Below, in pieces: positions 6,839-53,648 of a DNA stretch of 64,000 nucleotides. The translations under genes and the position numbers were made by a program. Under the pieces are notes generated by a model that saw only the letters and a list, made by a program, of their open reading frames with translations, did no database searches and was not told the origin of the DNA. Source of the DNA: Sandaracinus amylolyticus (GTDB lineage: Bacteria > Myxococcota_A > Polyangia > Polyangiales > Sandaracinaceae). The stretch spans positions 6,324,001 through 6,388,000 of the forward strand of contig NZ_CP011125.1 of NCBI RefSeq assembly GCF_000737325.1. The letters are read 5' to 3'. Positions within the stretch are counted from its first letter, which is position 1, and every line of letters starts with the position of its first letter.

Positions 6839-7315
6839 CCCCGGGGGGGCTGCGCGCCCCCCCTGTCGACCCCCCGAGCTGCGCGCGGGTCCTCAGCCCG
6901 CTTGCGATCTCGGCCGCCAACCGGCGCGGCGGGCCCGGGGGCTGCGCGCCCCCCTGTCGACCCCCCGAGCTGCGCGCGGGTCCTCAGCCCGCTTGCGATC
7001 TCGGCCGCCAACCGGCGCGGCGGGCCCGGGGGCTGCGCGCCCCCCCTGTCGACCCCCCGAGCTGCGCGCGGGTCCTCAGCCCGCTTGCGATCTCGGCCGC
7101 CAACCGGCGCGGCGGGCCCGGGGGCTGCGCGCCCCCCCTGTCGACCCCCCGAGCTGCGCGCGGGTCCTCAGCCCGCTTGCGATCTCGGCCGCCAACCGGC
7201 GCGGCGGGCCCGGGCGCTGCGCGCCCCCCGTCGACCCCGAGCTGCGCGCGGGTCCTCAGCCCGCTTGCGATCTCGGCCGGCAACGGCGCGGCGCCCGGGA
7301 GTCGCGCTGTAATCA
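6839..7315 (+). repeat. five tandem copies of an 88-92 bp GC-rich repeat
   Basis: A block containing GCGGGTCCTCAGCCCGCTTG recurs with the same anchor at 6890, 6981, 7073, 7165 and 7253, i.e. spacings of 91, 92, 92 and 88 bp. Each unit carries two hairpin-forming segments (GGGGC-TGCGC-GCCCC, and GCGGG...CCCGC). The array begins directly at the stop codon of the GltJ-like gene. Units differ by only a few bases, so expansion is recent. The open frames across it arise from base composition and are not genes. A diverged relative lies at 51102-51210. It may act as a terminator or processing region for the upstream mRNA. Confidence 0.9.
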
Positions 7316-12941: not shown

Positions 12942-12977
12942 ACCCGAGCCGGCGTGACGGCGGGTCGCGCGACGCCG

Positions 12978-13228
12978 CGCGCGACCCGCAAGACACTGCG
13001 CGCGACCCGCAAGACACTGCGCGCGACCCGCAAGACACTGCGCGCGACCCGCACGACACTGCGCGCGACCCGTAACTCACTGCGCGCGACCCCCACGACA
13101 CTGCGCGCGACCCCCACGACACTGCGCGCGACCCGCACGACACTGCGCGCGACCCCACGACACTGCGCGCGACCCCCACGACACCGCGCGCGACCCGCAC
13201 GACACTGCGCGCGACCCCCACGACACTG
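12978..13228. repeat. minisatellite: 12 tandem copies of a 21-bp unit
   Basis: Twelve units beginning CGCGCGACCC and ending in ACACTG follow one another; eleven are 21 bp and the ninth is 20 bp. Variation is concentrated at positions 11-15 (GCAAG, GCACG, CCCACG, GTAACT). The unit length is divisible by three, so all frames look open and give false ORFs with repeated peptides on both strands. The single 20-bp unit breaks the phase, arguing against coding. It fills the 336-bp gap between the lipoprotein and amidohydrolase genes; its last copy ends 24 bp before the next start codon. Confidence 0.95.
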
Positions 13229-13252
13229 CGCGCGGGCGAGTATCTTCGCGCG

Positions 13253-26072: not shown

Positions 26073-27488
26073 TCACTCGAGGTGCGCGAAGCGTCGGGCT
26101 CGTGCGCACTCGGTCTCGGTGAGCCTTCGCGGGCCGAGGATCGTCGAGTCGCTCGCGTCCGAGTCCATGAGGCGCCACGGCTGATCGGGGCCGAGGTGAT
26201 CGGGGTGCAGCGGGTGATCGAGGAGCACGTGGCCGAGCTCGTGCGCGAGCGTGAACGCGGCGCGGGCGCGTGCGATCCCTTCGCGCGAGATCAGCACGAC
26301 GTTCGCGATCGAGCCCGGCGCGCCCGCCGCTTCGCCCGAGACGAACGCCTCGCCGTCGCGCGTTCGGCCGGTGAATTCGCTGACGACGAGCACGTCGATC
26401 GTGCGCTCGTCCTCGTCCGTGATCGCGCGGACGAGCGCGCGCTCCTCGAGCGTGCCGGTGAGCGCGGCCATGTTGTCGAACTCGCGCAGTCCATCGCCGA
26501 GATCGACCTCGGCGATCGACACGCGCTGCTGCGCGTCGGTGGAGAGCGGCGCGTCGTCGTCGCGCGTGATCGTGACGAACGATCCATCGCGTCGGCGCAC
26601 CACGACGTCCGCCGAGCGATCCGCGCCGTTCTCGGTGCGCTCGTTCTCGAAGACTCGCGCGACGAAGCGCGCGCGGCGAAGCGCGGTCGCGATCGCGAGC
26701 GCGGTCTCGACCGGTCGCGCACCAGGCCGCGTGGTGATCGCCGGGATCGCGCGGCCGTCGACGCGCATGCGGATCACGCCCCCGCCGCGCGCAGGAAGAC
26801 CGTCGACGTCGGCGACGCTCAGCATCGACGCGCTCGGCGGGTCCACGACCGCGACGTCGAGCTCGAGCGGATCGCCGAAGCCGATCCCGCACTGCGCCCA
26901 GACCTCGTTCGCGATCGTCACCTGCTCGCGCGCCAGCGCTGCCGCGCGCGCTTCGTCGCCGCCGATCGCGGGGCGCCCTCCGACGTCGTTGCGCACGATG
27001 CGCATCCGCAGTCTCGCGCGGCGGGGCGGCGCGACGCGGATCTCGTACGTCACGCCCGCCGCGGTGACGCGCACGAGGTCGCCGAGCGCGACGAGCAGCA
27101 CGCGATCGGTCACATCGGGCGCCTCGGCGTCGAGGTCCGTCGTGACGAGCCGCAGGAACGCAGACCGCGACACACCTCTCTCGCGACGCAGCGGAACGTG
27201 CTCCTGGGCGTGTCGCGTGATGCCGAGCGCATCGACGCTCTCGATCGACGCCTCGTCGGCGTCGATCCCGACGAGCTCGATGCGCACGTCGCGCGCGTCG
27301 CTGCTGCCGTCGAACGACCACACGCGCGGGAGCGCCGCGTCGTTGGGGATGCGCAGCGAGGGCATCAGCACGGCGCGCGACGGATCGAGCGGAGTGTTCG
27401 CGCCGTTCAGGAGGCGCACCTCAGCGCGCTCCTGCGCGCTCGCGCTGATCGCGACGAGCACGATCAGCGCCGCGATCCACTCACGCAT
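26073..27488 (-). CDS. secreted zinc metalloprotease-like protein (HELGH)
   Basis: From the ATG at 27488 the 471-residue product starts MREWIAALIVLVAISASAQ, a signal peptide. The N-terminal 170 residues are beta-rich. The C-terminal part has FTLAHELGHVLLDHPLHPDH, a zincin motif HExxH with a third His/Asp ligand region, placed near residue 425. It probably cleaves proteins or peptides outside the cytoplasm. The same frame runs upstream for another 96 codons through three 93-bp repeats, each with its own ATGCGTGAG. Starting at the first would give a protein with a 31-residue repeat and an internal signal-like segment, so I prefer the last ATG. The gene follows the carrier/HEAT/cNMP gene and precedes the small gene at 25831. 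Confidence 0.8.
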   Translation of the reverse strand: MREWIAALIVLVAISASAQERAEVRLLNGANTPLDPSRAVLMPSLRIPNDAALPRVWSFDGSSDARDVRIELVGIDADEASIESVDALGITRHAQEHVPLRRERGVSRSAFLRLVTTDLDAEAPDVTDRVLLVALGDLVRVTAAGVTYEIRVAPPRRARLRMRIVRNDVGGRPAIGGDEARAAALAREQVTIANEVWAQCGIGFGDPLELDVAVVDPPSASMLSVADVDGLPARGGGVIRMRVDGRAIPAITTRPGARPVETALAIATALRRARFVARVFENERTENGADRSADVVVRRRDGSFVTITRDDDAPLSTDAQQRVSIAEVDLGDGLREFDNMAALTGTLEERALVRAITDEDERTIDVLVVSEFTGRTRDGEAFVSGEAAGAPGSIANVVLISREGIARARAAFTLAHELGHVLLDHPLHPDHLGPDQPWRLMDSDASDSTILGPRRLTETECARARRFAHLE

Positions 27489-27770
27489 GAGGCGCAACAT
27501 CGGCTCGCGGGCGACGGGCCCTCCCGTACGCGTGCTCCGCACGCTCCCGTGCGCGCCCGGCGCCGGCGAGCACTCACGCATGGGACGCCAAATCGGCTCG
27601 CGGGCACCGCGCCCTCCCGTACGCGTGCTCCGCACGCTCCCGTGCGCGCCCGGCGCCGGCGAGCACTCACGCATGGGACGCCAAATCGGCTCGCGGGCAC
27701 CGCGCCCTCCCCTCCGCGTGCTCCGCACGCTCCCGTGCGGGCCCGGTGCCGGCGAGCACTCACGCATGGG
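27478..27770 (-). repeat. 93-bp tandem repeat that multiplies the protease start codon
   Basis: The segment containing CACTCACGCATG recurs at 27478, 27571, 27664 and 27757, exactly 93 bp apart. On the minus strand each copy carries ATGCGTGAG (ATGs at 27767, 27674, 27581, 27488) in the same frame, because 93 is 31 codons. In the first copy this ATG overlaps the stop of the upstream gene (ATGCGTGA); in the last copy it leads into the signal peptide. The two central copies are nearly identical. Confidence 0.95.
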
Positions 27771-30700
27771 ACGCACGGCGATGGCCCGCGTCGCGCAGCC
27801 GGCGTACCAGCACGCGCACGATGCCCTGCACGATCGGCGGACGCGTGACCATCAGCTCGCGTAGATCGGCGCCGCGCAGCCGCAGTAGCTGCGCGTCGCT
27901 CACGCAGAGCGCGTCGCCGCTGCGCGGCTGATGGTCCAGCACCGCGAGATCGCCGAAGAATTCGCGCTCTCCGAGCTCCGCGATGCGCACCCCACCCTGC
28001 TCGATCGCGATCGTCCCACGCACCACGAGATAGAGGTCCTCGCCGGGGTCGCCCTCGTGGAACACCGCCGCGCCGGCGCGCTGCTCGACCTGCTCGAGCA
28101 CGTCGGCGACGCTCAGCAGATCCTCGCCCGAGAGGCCCTCGAAGAGCGGCACGCTGCGCAAGAATCGGATGCGTTCGATGCGCGGGATCATCGGGCGATC
28201 GATCTCGGCGAGGTCGGGGAAGCGCTGCTCGAAGCGCGCGCCGTACGTGAGCAGCGCGCAGCGACGCAGGTGAGCATCGTCGAGCAGCACGATCGCGTCC
28301 AGCGGGTCCTCGATCGCTTCTCGATCGACGAGCCCGACGCGGCGCGCTGCGTCGATGCGCTCGCGCAGCGAGAGCCGCTCGAACACCGGCACGACCTTGC
28401 GCGCGATCACGGGATCGAGCGCCATCTCGAGCAGCTCCGCGACCTGAGCGTCACGCTCGCGCGACGGCGCACGGCGCGATGCCTCGATCGCCGACACGAG
28501 GCGCGGGCTCGCGCCGCGCAGCAACAAGAGCTCGAGCACCTCCGCGCGCGACGCCTCGATGCGCAGCTCGACCTCGCGCGCGAGGAAACGAACGTGGGGC
28601 TCGAACTCCCAGTCCGGCACCCCGTCGTCGCGCGCGATGCCCGCGAGGATCGACGCGAGCAAGAACGATCGGCGCACCTCGCGCTCGACGAGCGGCAGCG
28701 TGACCTCGGGCTCGAGCGGCGCGCGACGTCCGGCGCGGATCGCATCCGCGAGCGCGAACGTCGCGTGATGTCGGATCGCGGGATCACGATGCTCGAGCAG
28801 CCGCTTGAGGAGCGCGTCCGACGATGCCGCGCCCGGCGAGCGCGCGATGCGACGCGCGATCTCGGTGAGCGACGCGAGCGTGCTCGCGCCCGCGGGACGC
28901 GTGTGATCCCCGAACGCGACCTCGCCGACCTCGACCAGCACTCGCGCCACCGCGGGGCCCGTCGCCGGGTCCTTCAGAAGGACCACGACGTCGGGCAACA
29001 GGGTGAGCAGACCGAGCGCGATCACGCGCTCCGCGGCGTGGATCCGCACGTCGGGCGCGGCGTGCGCGAGCAGCGCGCGGAGCGTCTCCTGCATTCCTTT
29101 CGCGTGCGCGGCCTCGACCGTGAGCTCGTCGAGCGCGGTGCCACGCGCGCCCGGGTCCTCACCGCGCAGCGCGGGCAGCAGCGCCGCACCGAGGGCCGGT
29201 CCGTCGTGCGTGCACCGCAGACACAGCGCGCGCGCGATCGAAGCGACCTGCAGATCCGCGTCGTGCTCGGCGCGCGCGAGCGCGTCCTGGATTGCGCGAT
29301 CGGAGCGTGCGGTCGCGAGCTGTGCGATCGAAGGGCGCATCGCGCTCACGATGGCGCGACGGACCTCGACATCGATCTCGCGCCCCAGCGCGCGCGCCAG
29401 ATGCCGCGCGCCCGCGAGATCCGGAATGCGCGAGAGCGCCTCGGCGCTGGCCGCGCGCACGCGCGCGTCTGCGTGCACCAACCCGAGCGCGATGCGATCG
29501 ATCTGCACCGCGTCGCCCGAGAGTCCGAGCATCTCCGCGGCGAGCATCGCGCGCGCGGCGTCACTCCCGCGGATCTCGCGCTCGAGCAGCTCGATCACGT
29601 CGCGCTCGAGCGGCGCGAGGCGCGGCGCACGACCGACCCCCAGGAACAACCGCCGCTCGTCGACCGCGCGCTCGAGCGCGCGCAGGTACGTCTTCCGCGC
29701 GCTCGTCGCGATGACGATCACGGTGATCGTCGAGAGCACGAGCACGAGCGCGGCGAGCCATCGCTCGTCCACGTGCTCGGGAATCGCCGCGAGCCCGAGC
29801 GCGCACACCGCGTATCCCACCGGCGCGAGCACGCCGCGCGTCGCCGCGCGCGCCTGGGCACGACGCGCGTGCGAGAGCGGCGTCTGCATCTGCTCCTGCG
29901 CGTTGGACCACAGCGCCTGCTTCAGCACGCGCCCGGTCCCGCGCAGCAGCACCGCGGACGTCAGCCCCGGCACCAGCGTCGCGAACACCGCCGCGATCGC
30001 GGTGACGAGCGGCGTCGCGATCAGCGCGCGCGTCGCGCCGAGCGCACCGAGCACACGCGCCGCGGGCCCGGCGAGCAGCAGGATCCCGATCGCGCTCGTG
30101 ATCGCGTAGTAGCGCCCGATGAACGCGCTGATCGCCTCCGCGTCACCGAGCGTCTCGCGCGCGGTCGCCATCACGTGGAAGTCCATCACCTCTTCCACGA
30201 CGAGCGCGAGGATCGAGAGCACCGCCATCATGCGCAGCAGCGGCACCTTCGCGACGAAGCGGAACGCCTCTGCCAGCGGCGCGCTCACCTTGGTCCCTCG
30301 GCGATCGCGCTCGTCGAGATCGAGCCGCGCCATCACGCGCGCGACCCACCACGCCGCGCCGAGCAGCACCGGCGCGAGCAGCAGCAGTCCCTCGCTCGCG
30401 ATCACCTCGACGATCGGCTGCACCGCGAGCCCCGCGATCGTCCACGCGAGCGCCGCGCCGATCCCCGCCACCGGCAACAAGCGTCGCGCCGTGCGCGCAT
30501 CCGTCGCCGCGCTCGCGACCGCCCACACTTGGATCACGAGCACGCCCGACGCGGCCTCGATCACGACGTAGAGCACGAACGGGATACTTGGTTGGTCGAC
30601 CAACAAAAGCGCGCGCAGCACGACCATCGCGATGGCCGACCACGACAGCGAGATCGTCCCGAGCCGCGCGGTGCCGAGCCGCTGCGCGTACGCGACCGTC

Positions 30701-30909
30701 AGCGACGAGAGCGACGCGAGCAGCACCGACGACGCCGCGAACGCCCACGGGATCATCGAGCGCGGGTACGCGACGAGGAAGATCCCGCTCTGCGCCGCCT
30801 TCATGAGCGAGAGCGCCGACGAGAGCAGGAAGATCAGCGCGAGCATGCGCACCGCGCGCCCGCCCTGCCCCTCGGGCAGGTCCAACCACGCGGCGACGAA
30901 GCGGCTCAC
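27760..30909 (-). CDS. nucleotide-carrier-like membrane protein fused to HEAT repeats and a cNMP-binding domain
   Basis: The GTG at 30909 overlaps the upstream stop (GTGA). The 1049-residue protein has about 11-12 membrane helices in residues 1-430, similar in pattern to NTT-type ADP/ATP carriers and MFS proteins (MLALIFLLSSALSLMKAAQS, VLYVVIEAASGVLVIQVWA, RVLKQALWSNAQEQMQTPL). Residues about 440-880 are HEAT-like helical repeats (VRAASAEALSRIPD, AIRHHATFALADAIR). Residues about 913-1049 are a cyclic-nucleotide-binding domain: PLFEGLSGEDLLSVADV, FHEGDPGEDLYLVVRG, then FFGDLAVLDHQPRSGDA. In the phosphate cassette the usual Glu is Asp and the usual Arg-Ser/Thr-Ala is RSG. It may be a transporter or a signalling platform in the inner membrane. 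Confidence 0.85.
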   Translation of the reverse strand: MSRFVAAWLDLPEGQGGRAVRMLALIFLLSSALSLMKAAQSGIFLVAYPRSMIPWAFAASSVLLASLSSLTVAYAQRLGTARLGTISLSWSAIAMVVLRALLLVDQPSIPFVLYVVIEAASGVLVIQVWAVASAATDARTARRLLPVAGIGAALAWTIAGLAVQPIVEVIASEGLLLLAPVLLGAAWWVARVMARLDLDERDRRGTKVSAPLAEAFRFVAKVPLLRMMAVLSILALVVEEVMDFHVMATARETLGDAEAISAFIGRYYAITSAIGILLLAGPAARVLGALGATRALIATPLVTAIAAVFATLVPGLTSAVLLRGTGRVLKQALWSNAQEQMQTPLSHARRAQARAATRGVLAPVGYAVCALGLAAIPEHVDERWLAALVLVLSTITVIVIATSARKTYLRALERAVDERRLFLGVGRAPRLAPLERDVIELLEREIRGSDAARAMLAAEMLGLSGDAVQIDRIALGLVHADARVRAASAEALSRIPDLAGARHLARALGREIDVEVRRAIVSAMRPSIAQLATARSDRAIQDALARAEHDADLQVASIARALCLRCTHDGPALGAALLPALRGEDPGARGTALDELTVEAAHAKGMQETLRALLAHAAPDVRIHAAERVIALGLLTLLPDVVVLLKDPATGPAVARVLVEVGEVAFGDHTRPAGASTLASLTEIARRIARSPGAASSDALLKRLLEHRDPAIRHHATFALADAIRAGRRAPLEPEVTLPLVEREVRRSFLLASILAGIARDDGVPDWEFEPHVRFLAREVELRIEASRAEVLELLLLRGASPRLVSAIEASRRAPSRERDAQVAELLEMALDPVIARKVVPVFERLSLRERIDAARRVGLVDREAIEDPLDAIVLLDDAHLRRCALLTYGARFEQRFPDLAEIDRPMIPRIERIRFLRSVPLFEGLSGEDLLSVADVLEQVEQRAGAAVFHEGDPGEDLYLVVRGTIAIEQGGVRIAELGEREFFGDLAVLDHQPRSGDALCVSDAQLLRLRGADLRELMVTRPPIVQGIVRVLVRRLRDAGHRRASHA

Positions 30910-32429
30910 CGCTCTTCGCGCGCCCACTCGGGCGGCGGCTGCGATGCCCACTCGGGCCGCGGATCCATCGGCACGCGCACGCCGCAGCCGTGGTTCACCG
31001 CGATCGGTCCGTCGGGCACGAGGAAGCCGTCGGTGATGCCGGGCATGCCGGTGATCTCCGTCGGGCCGGGGCAGCCCTGCTCGATCCACGCGCGCACGAG
31101 CGCGATCTCGTCGTCGGGGATCGACGGGAGGCCCATCGGCATGCCGGGCTCGTGATCGGTGTACGCGGGTCGCTCGTGATCGTGGAACGGAAGCACGTGA
31201 TCACGACGCTCCTCGTCCCGCCGTCGCAGCATCACCTCGAGCAGGAGCGGCATCGACGCGTTCTCCCAGGTCTCGAGGTACGACCACTGGCGATCCTCGA
31301 TGCCCGGCATGCCGCTGACGAGCGCTTCGTAGGTGCGGAAGTGCACGCGCTCGCTGGGCCAGCCCCACCCACCCGCGTTGCCCGGCCCGAGATCGCGCTC
31401 GTGATCGTTCATGTGACAGTGGACGCACACGCGGCCGAGCACGCGCTCCTTCACCTCTTCCCACGACACCGGGCGCTGCACCGCGGGCGGCAGCACGAAC
31501 TCGTCCTTGGGCGGCATGGGCTCGAGCTCGGGATCCGCGAACCACAAGAAGTCGCGGATGAGCTCGGCGTCCTCGCGCCGCACGCGCAGGTTCGGCATCA
31601 GCGTGCCCGGCGCGATGCGCTGGGGATCGACGATCCAGTCGACGACGACGTCGGCGTGCATGCGCTCGCGCACGAAGCGCAGGTTGGGCGCGAGGCGCGC
31701 CGGGATGCCGGCGCCGCGGATCTGCTCCTCGGTGCGGCCCAACCGGATGTTGCCGACGTAGTGACAGGCGTTGCAGCCGCGCTCCTGGAAGAGCTGTCGT
31801 CCGCGCGCGATGCGCGACTCGTCGCGCGCGAGCTCGGGCTCGGGTGACGCGCTCGTCTCGCCGAACGGATCGCGCACCTCGGCGACCGCCGCGAAGTAGC
31901 GCGTGATCGCGCGGACGTCGTCCTCGCTCGCGGCGATGCGCACCATCGTCTCGTGCATCGTCGGTCGCACGTCGAAGGGCGCGGCGACGTAGTCGCGGAT
32001 GAACTCGGGGCGCAGGCGCCGCGCGATGCCGGTGAGATCGGGGACCGCGAGGTAGTGCTCGATGTTGCGCTGATAGCGCTCGATCGTGTCCTCGCCGTAG
32101 CGCGACGCGATGGTCCGATAGCGACGATCGTCGCGCGGCAGCCCGTCGAGGAACACGTGGCAGCTCACGCAGTGCTCGCTGCGACCCGCCGCCGCGATCT
32201 CGTCGACGACGTGACATCGCGTGCACTCGAGCCGCTCGATCACGGCGCGCCCTTCGCTCAGCGCCTCGGTGCGCGCGTCCGCGTCCCACTGCACGTGGTA
32301 GCGCTCGAGCGCGAGCGGCGTCCGTGGCGGCGCTTCGACCGGCGTGGGCGCGGGCCCGTCGCTGCACGCGCACGCGCTCGCCAACAACACGCTCACGCAC
32401 GAGAGCAGCCCCAGACCCCAGCCACGCAT
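30906..32429 (-). CDS. multihaem cytochrome c lipoprotein
   Basis: The 507-residue product has a lipoprotein-type signal peptide (MRGWGLGLLSCVSVLLAS followed by AC, Cys20). It carries four c-type haem motifs: CTRCH (69-73), CVSCH (87-91), CNACH near 206 and CVHCH near 336, and a distal 'HGCGV' near the C-terminus. The middle third resembles mono-haem cytochrome c modules (SRIARGRQLFQERGCNACHYVGNIRLG, with NLRFVRERMHADVVVDWI), typical of proteins with c_oxidase/SO-like electron-transfer roles. It should act in the periplasm or outer membrane. It is first in a four-gene operon with the carrier/HEAT/cNMP gene, which it overlaps by 4 bp. Confidence 0.9.
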   Translation of the reverse strand: MRGWGLGLLSCVSVLLASACACSDGPAPTPVEAPPRTPLALERYHVQWDADARTEALSEGRAVIERLECTRCHVVDEIAAAGRSEHCVSCHVFLDGLPRDDRRYRTIASRYGEDTIERYQRNIEHYLAVPDLTGIARRLRPEFIRDYVAAPFDVRPTMHETMVRIAASEDDVRAITRYFAAVAEVRDPFGETSASPEPELARDESRIARGRQLFQERGCNACHYVGNIRLGRTEEQIRGAGIPARLAPNLRFVRERMHADVVVDWIVDPQRIAPGTLMPNLRVRREDAELIRDFLWFADPELEPMPPKDEFVLPPAVQRPVSWEEVKERVLGRVCVHCHMNDHERDLGPGNAGGWGWPSERVHFRTYEALVSGMPGIEDRQWSYLETWENASMPLLLEVMLRRRDEERRDHVLPFHDHERPAYTDHEPGMPMGLPSIPDDEIALVRAWIEQGCPGPTEITGMPGITDGFLVPDGPIAVNHGCGVRVPMDPRPEWASQPPPEWAREER

Positions 32430-53562: not shown

Positions 53563-53648
53563 CTTGCCGGAGTGCTCGTCCCGCAGGTCCCGGACGGGAG
53601 CGCGCGGAGCGCGCGGACGGTAGGGACCCGCGGGCGAGCCGATTTTCG
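53563..53648 (+). repeat. dispersed intergenic repeat, copy B
   Basis: Three bp after the S1 stop, the sequence CTTGCCGGAGTGCTCG then CAGGTCCCGGACGGGAG then GCGGGCGAGCCGATTTT matches copy A at 45118. Copy B has an extra 25-bp insert (GCGCGCGGAGCGCGCGGACG) with its own short inverted repeat, so the two copies differ in their middle. Confidence 0.8.

Follow-up and report, generated by a model that had tools for sequence, protein, structure and literature searches.

The junction between a gene for a carrier of the TLC ATP/ADP transporter type and a downstream gene for a secreted-type, metalloprotease-like protein raises the question of why a start codon for the second gene is present there four times. 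In the window, by which we mean the whole stretch of 64,000 nucleotides that was analysed, the sequence CTCACGCAT, which reads ATGCGTGAG on the minus strand, is found only at positions 27480, 27573, 27666 and 27759, and the four copies are exactly 93 bp apart and in one frame, as an earlier note on this DNA had stated.

The array and the two genes that flank it

The two genes and the parts of the array are listed in Table 1. TRF reports a 93-bp array at 27478–27774 with 3.2 copies, 94% matches and a score of 517, and the three full units are identical to each other at 82–89 of the 93 positions in pairwise comparisons. Each unit is made up of an imperfect palindrome of about 79 bp and 14 bp of host sequence. 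All three cores have GCGTCCCATGCGTG(AG) in front of them, the last one is followed by a near-copy of it, GCGCCTCATGCGTG(AG), and about 14–16 bp of target is repeated on both sides of every copy in the window. What had been described as four repeat copies holds for the short ATG-bearing spacers, of which there are four; the repeated element itself is present in three copies.

The first base of element copy 1 is the A of the carrier stop TGA (27762–27760), and this stop overlaps the first ATG (27767–27765) inside the first ATGCGTGAG motif, an arrangement that the earlier note had read correctly. Host target repeat 1, the upstream copy, holds the ATG that overlaps the carrier stop, and repeat 4 carries the last ATG (27488–27486), which opens MREWIAALIVLVAISASAQE. 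One more in-frame ATG, at 27500–27498, is contributed by the last element copy at its 3' end. The reading frame of the protease is open through all copies of the array and runs in frame up to the ATG at 27767, giving 564 aa. The name metalloprotease is used because of a HELGH motif in the translated sequence; the downstream protein has no Pfam match. The window holds in addition a 21-bp tandem repeat at 12966–13234, with 12.9 copies and 91% matches in TRF.

Table 1. Location of the two genes, the element copies and the host target repeats in the window.
Feature	Position	Strand	Remarks
HELGH protein, secreted-type, metalloprotease-like, 471 aa	26073..27488	-	G002 ortholog 93% identical, same start
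TLC ATP/ADP transporter-like protein with cNMP-binding domain	27760..31089	-	Pfam PF03219, PF00027
Element copy 1 (about 79 bp, subfamily A)	27682..27760	-	nhmmer 57.7 bits, E 3e-16; covarying family hairpin
Element copy 2 (about 79 bp)	27589..27667	-	nhmmer 59.7 bits
Element copy 3 (about 79 bp)	27496..27574	-	nhmmer 60.1 bits
Host target repeat 1, GCGTCCCATGCGTG	27761..27774	-	direct repeat; single copy in G002 empty allele
Host target repeat 2, spacer of element copies 1 and 2	27668..27681	-	direct repeat
Host target repeat 3, spacer of element copies 2 and 3	27575..27588	-	direct repeat
Host target repeat 4, GCGCCTCATGCGTG, downstream copy	27482..27495	-	12/14 to other repeats
Single subfamily-B copy, same family	53571..53646	+	11 nt past a TGA stop

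The orthologous junction in a sister species

The window's own genome (G000, 10,327,335 bp) was compared with a sister genome of the same genus (G002), which appears to be that of Sandaracinus defensii; the published genome sizes are 10.33 Mb for S. amylolyticus (PMC5010890) and 10.754 Mb for S. defensii MSr10575 (PMC9306752). The G002 ortholog of the downstream gene begins with MREWVAALIVLVAISASAQ, its start codon corresponding to the last ATG of the array, with a dN of 0.039 and a dS of 0.267 between the two genes. The carrier stop and the protease start overlap in G002 as ATGCGTGA, and just upstream of the protease start the sequence reads CGCGTCGCATGCGTGAGTGGGTCGCC, a plain 8-bp overlap. 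No element, no remnant and no duplicated target was found at this orthologous junction. The simple overlap of 8 bp, proposed before as the ancestral state, is thus intact in the sister species, and the last ATG, which had been taken as the functional start, is the conserved start of the protease, being shared with the ortholog. In the filled allele of the window both genes are intact, and the C-terminus of the carrier, RRASHA followed by the stop in both species, was left unchanged by the insertion.

Gain in G000 is favoured over loss in G002, because G002 has neither a remnant nor a duplicated target, and from this one sister genome we infer that the array is a lineage-specific insertion. With a probability of roughly 0.87 the array constitutes an inserted, non-autonomous and hairpin-forming small mobile element, belonging to a family so far seen in two Sandaracinus genomes. 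The pair of empty and filled alleles would then show how a small mobile element, and not gradual drift, has separated a stop/start overlap by 279 bp in one lineage. Gradual drift or local duplication as the origin of the array is rejected in view of the empty allele in G002.

According to the proposed course of events, one copy would have integrated at the TGAG within ATGCGTGAG and duplicated the ATG-bearing target, and slippage or unequal recombination between target repeats that flank a strong palindrome would have led to three copies. The ATG would have been multiplied because it lies within the repeated target, and all ATGs share one frame owing to the unit length of 93 bp, which is a coincidence. 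An overlap of stop and start codons is the classic configuration for translational coupling, and a ribosome that ends at the carrier stop would now meet an ATG 279 nt ahead of the signal peptide. The protease might start at the conserved last ATG or at the newly formed one at 27500, in either case with coupling weakened, or translation might restart at the first ATG and give a 93-residue Arg/Pro-rich extension that probably would mask the signal peptide. Where an annotated protein has an in-frame repeat extension at its N-terminus, this may be the product of such an insertion.

A dispersed family of palindromes next to stop codons

A search of the window's own genome gave 51 matches to this repeated stretch. 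An HMM was built from the window units and then rebuilt from the family, and it has a conserved core of about 79 bp, AGTGCTCG...CGAGCCGAT, with two subfamilies (A and B), the copies of which occur singly or as head-to-tail arrays of 2–5. A two-ended pattern has 151 matches in G000 and 287 in G002, with 6 and 5 in the reversed control; none was found in the draft genome G001, and the other genomes of the order, 183 being searched in all, are at background counts. Genome G030 has a single weak match to the element model (E 6.6e-4). One copy is located on the sister species' second replicon, which is probably a plasmid (L070; G002 contig 2, 209,732 bp, 2679–2775). No gathering-level Rfam match was obtained in the window and no relevant one in five other loci, and a published description of this family was not found in the open-access literature that was searched. 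Two complete sister genomes with hundreds of matches, and with many differences in presence and copy number, offer material and a chance to study palindromes adjacent to stop codons outside the REP/RAYT model.

The core forms a long hairpin that has an apical stem of 6 bp and two internal loops rich in purines, and the element has the foot GGAGT and the target tag T[C/G]AG. Among the 53 sequences of subfamily A, 95.3% of the cells are paired and 9 pairs show double changes, and none of 500 shuffles reaches either value, while subfamily B is less variable and gives the hairpin weaker covariation support. Folding z-scores of the single window copies are unremarkable, between -0.4 and -0.9, and the claim of a hairpin is based on covariation.

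The 129 sampled sites (205 units) lie mostly between genes, the genes being called by a simple codon-composition script, which makes these counts approximate. For genes that run into the element from the left, the distance from the stop to the core is 10–11 nt at about 43 of 65 sites, and a similar cluster of stops is found 10–13 nt away on the right side; divergent intergenic regions hold few elements (7 of 129 sites). The stops next to elements are of the form TGAG in 58 of 85 cases as compared to 98 of 404 background stops (p = 3e-14). In 42% of the cases an array spacer matches the left flank of its own site at 80% or more, as compared to 4.9% for the flanks of other sites, and locus-specific flanking direct repeats of at least 9 bp are present at 16 sites, with 1.6 expected. 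No terminal inverted repeats were seen in the flank consensus or in the aligned sites.

Pairs of empty and filled sites were found in both directions between the two species, namely the window vs L075, L009 vs L084, L024 vs L076, L058 vs L208, L072 vs L201, L153 vs L199, L158 vs L204, and others. In the empty alleles the native stop is present without the element, and the insertion is just 3' of T[C/G]AG, as seen in L072 vs L201, L153 vs L199, L058 vs L208 and L158 vs L204; by a hand count, made by eye, the tag is present in the empty allele of about 15 of 22 pairs. The short tag at the insertion point, CTCAG or CTGAG, recurs at the 3' end of the element. Target repeats are of about 5 bp (L072 and L153), 13 bp (L058), 14 bp (L009) and 14–16 bp (the window), and some pairs have no clear target repeat. 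The window copy obeys the TGAG rule, but the TCC..GCTGG arm that usually separates tag and core is missing from it, so that it is not a typical full-length insertion. At the site in G002 orthologous to the single subfamily-B copy of the window no element was found. One convergent junction (L018:2957–3034 and L088:1200–1371) has a single A copy in G000 and, in G002, two B copies that are oriented the other way, an arrangement suggestive of independent insertions at a single stop codon. At many shared sites (L013, L028, L033, L034, L037 and L038) the G002 ortholog retains no more than a hairpin remnant with an internal deletion, and elements thus seem to degenerate through deletions inside the palindrome.

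As a tentative and possible generalization, a bacterial mobile element may specifically target stop codons, at TGAG and in either orientation with the native stop remaining usable, and its target duplications may seed tandem hairpin arrays, which where a stop and a start overlap would change a coupled gene start into an in-frame multi-start array. The spacing of 10–11 nt after stops and the scarcity of copies between divergent genes could also be expected if the family were a structure of mRNA 3' ends, such as a stability hairpin, a terminator or a ribosome-stalling element, kept by selection at gene ends and with the window copy as a by-product or co-opted. The conserved internal-loop motif and the covarying stem fit such a role, and in E. 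coli many REPs are located within 15 nt of a stop codon, where they reduce translation, according to work that PMC12306157 cites. Genes enter the sites from either side, however, with 30 of the arrangement +E+ and 26 of -E-, the clean pairs have a native stop without any element in the sister species, and many sites differ between the species, the hairpin often being internally deleted in one of them. The species differences, the internal deletions and the element-free stops argue against strong selection to keep the hairpins, and we regard a selected 3'-end structure as rather unlikely to explain the family, though it can be combined with mobility. A rule of orientation, as for terminators, is rejected, since genes run in from both sides.

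For every orthologous array that was mapped the two species have unequal copy numbers, e.g. 3 vs 1, 4 vs 1, 2 vs 1, 3 vs 0, or an array vs none or a remnant, which bears out the earlier suggestion that the copy number can change. The earlier note had pointed out that copy changes keep the frame since the unit is 31 codons long. This is as expected by chance, as 25 of the 76 distances from one unit to the next across the family are divisible by three. The unit length therefore needs no special explanation, and selection for 31-codon units is rejected by the same count. The start codon had been seen as tandemly duplicated as a functional unit; instead, the ATG lies in a target repeat of about 14 bp that flanks a foreign palindromic element present throughout the genome. 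The corresponding reading, that the gene junction was duplicated locally in tandem and acts as a copy-number switch that tunes coupling and protease export, could draw on the open frame through all copies, the exact 31-codon unit and a copy number that is labile at the level of the family. It is very improbable considering that 79 of the 93 bp belong to an element that recurs at many other loci, with the same habit beside unrelated genes, that the junction of the sister species has no such sequence, and that multiples of three are no more frequent than by chance. Nothing in the data supports selection for frame or tuning by copy number. A second dispersed repeat with a different consensus is located at 6845–7293 in the window (period about 92 bp, 4.9 copies, G+C-rich core of about 63 bp), with 23 matches in G000 and 37 in the sister genome.

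Relation to known elements and candidate enzymes

The family was compared to described systems. REP, BIME and REPIN sequences with their RAYT (TnpA_REP) are likewise high-copy, mostly intergenic or extragenic palindromes that can occur in arrays and have a short tag near the hairpin, and with GTAG REPs it is often the terminus of the repeat that provides a stop codon (PMC3733652). A REP is however a hairpin of 20–40 bp with the tag GTAG or CGTC, in contrast to the core of 79 bp and the tag T[C/G]AG in Sandaracinus, and REP arrays alternate in orientation whereas those in Sandaracinus are head-to-tail with locus-specific spacers. The Y1 transposase gene of the REP/RAYT system was not found in the Sandaracinus genomes. 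YPAL/RU-2 of Yersinia and other enterobacteria is also a palindromic small mobile element that has no TA termini and is not A+T-rich, and its target duplications vary between 3 and 26 bp according to a review (PMC2229807). Orthologous sites that are filled in one genome and empty in another, together with target repeats, are common to both, but YPAL has 168 bp against about 79 bp here, and the likeness is one of description. YPAL targets are at or near dyad symmetry and not at the TGAG of stop codons, and the review mentions no tandem expansion (PMC2229807), in contrast to the tandem arrays in Sandaracinus. Bacterial MITEs such as RUP and Correia/NEMIS are likewise non-autonomous, dispersed, of about 100 bp and accompanied by target repeats. 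Terminal inverted repeats such as a classical, DDE-mobilised MITE shares with an autonomous IS were not seen in the flank consensus or the aligned sites. The Sandaracinus family differs from MITEs in its very high G+C content and in its placement at stop codons, and its target repeats, of about 5 to 16 bp among clean pairs, are not of the fixed length of a classical MITE. The family is new but of a known kind, i.e. REP/YPAL-like small palindromic mobile elements.

With regard to the enzyme, the family might have been spread in trans by a single-strand (HUH, Y1) transposase of the IS200/IS605 or REP type with T[C/G]AG as a cleavage tag at both ends, which is a sub-hypothesis compatible with a mobile element. 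The insertion 3' of CTCAG or CTGAG with the tag repeated at the 3' end of the element, the hairpin and the lack of visible terminal inverted repeats are in line with this. The Y1 domain PF01797 has on the other hand no match in G000, G002 or G001 while 5 of 14 control genomes are positive, and some sites repeat 13–16 bp of target, which such enzymes are not known to produce; a transposase of this type is thus unlikely to be the mobiliser.

A reverse transcriptase was also considered as mobiliser and rejected: RVT_1 genes are present, but no copy was detected by the element model in the DNA around ten of them. A reverse-transcriptase element of about 2.07 kb (L044:915–3089, G000 around 9.087 Mb) is about 99% identical among the six copies compared, and in L044 one of its ends and a 79-bp hairpin element are separated by about 20 bp. 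This recalls the group II introns of class C, which insert after hairpins. The abundant RVT_1 type looks like an intron that was once inserted beside an element.
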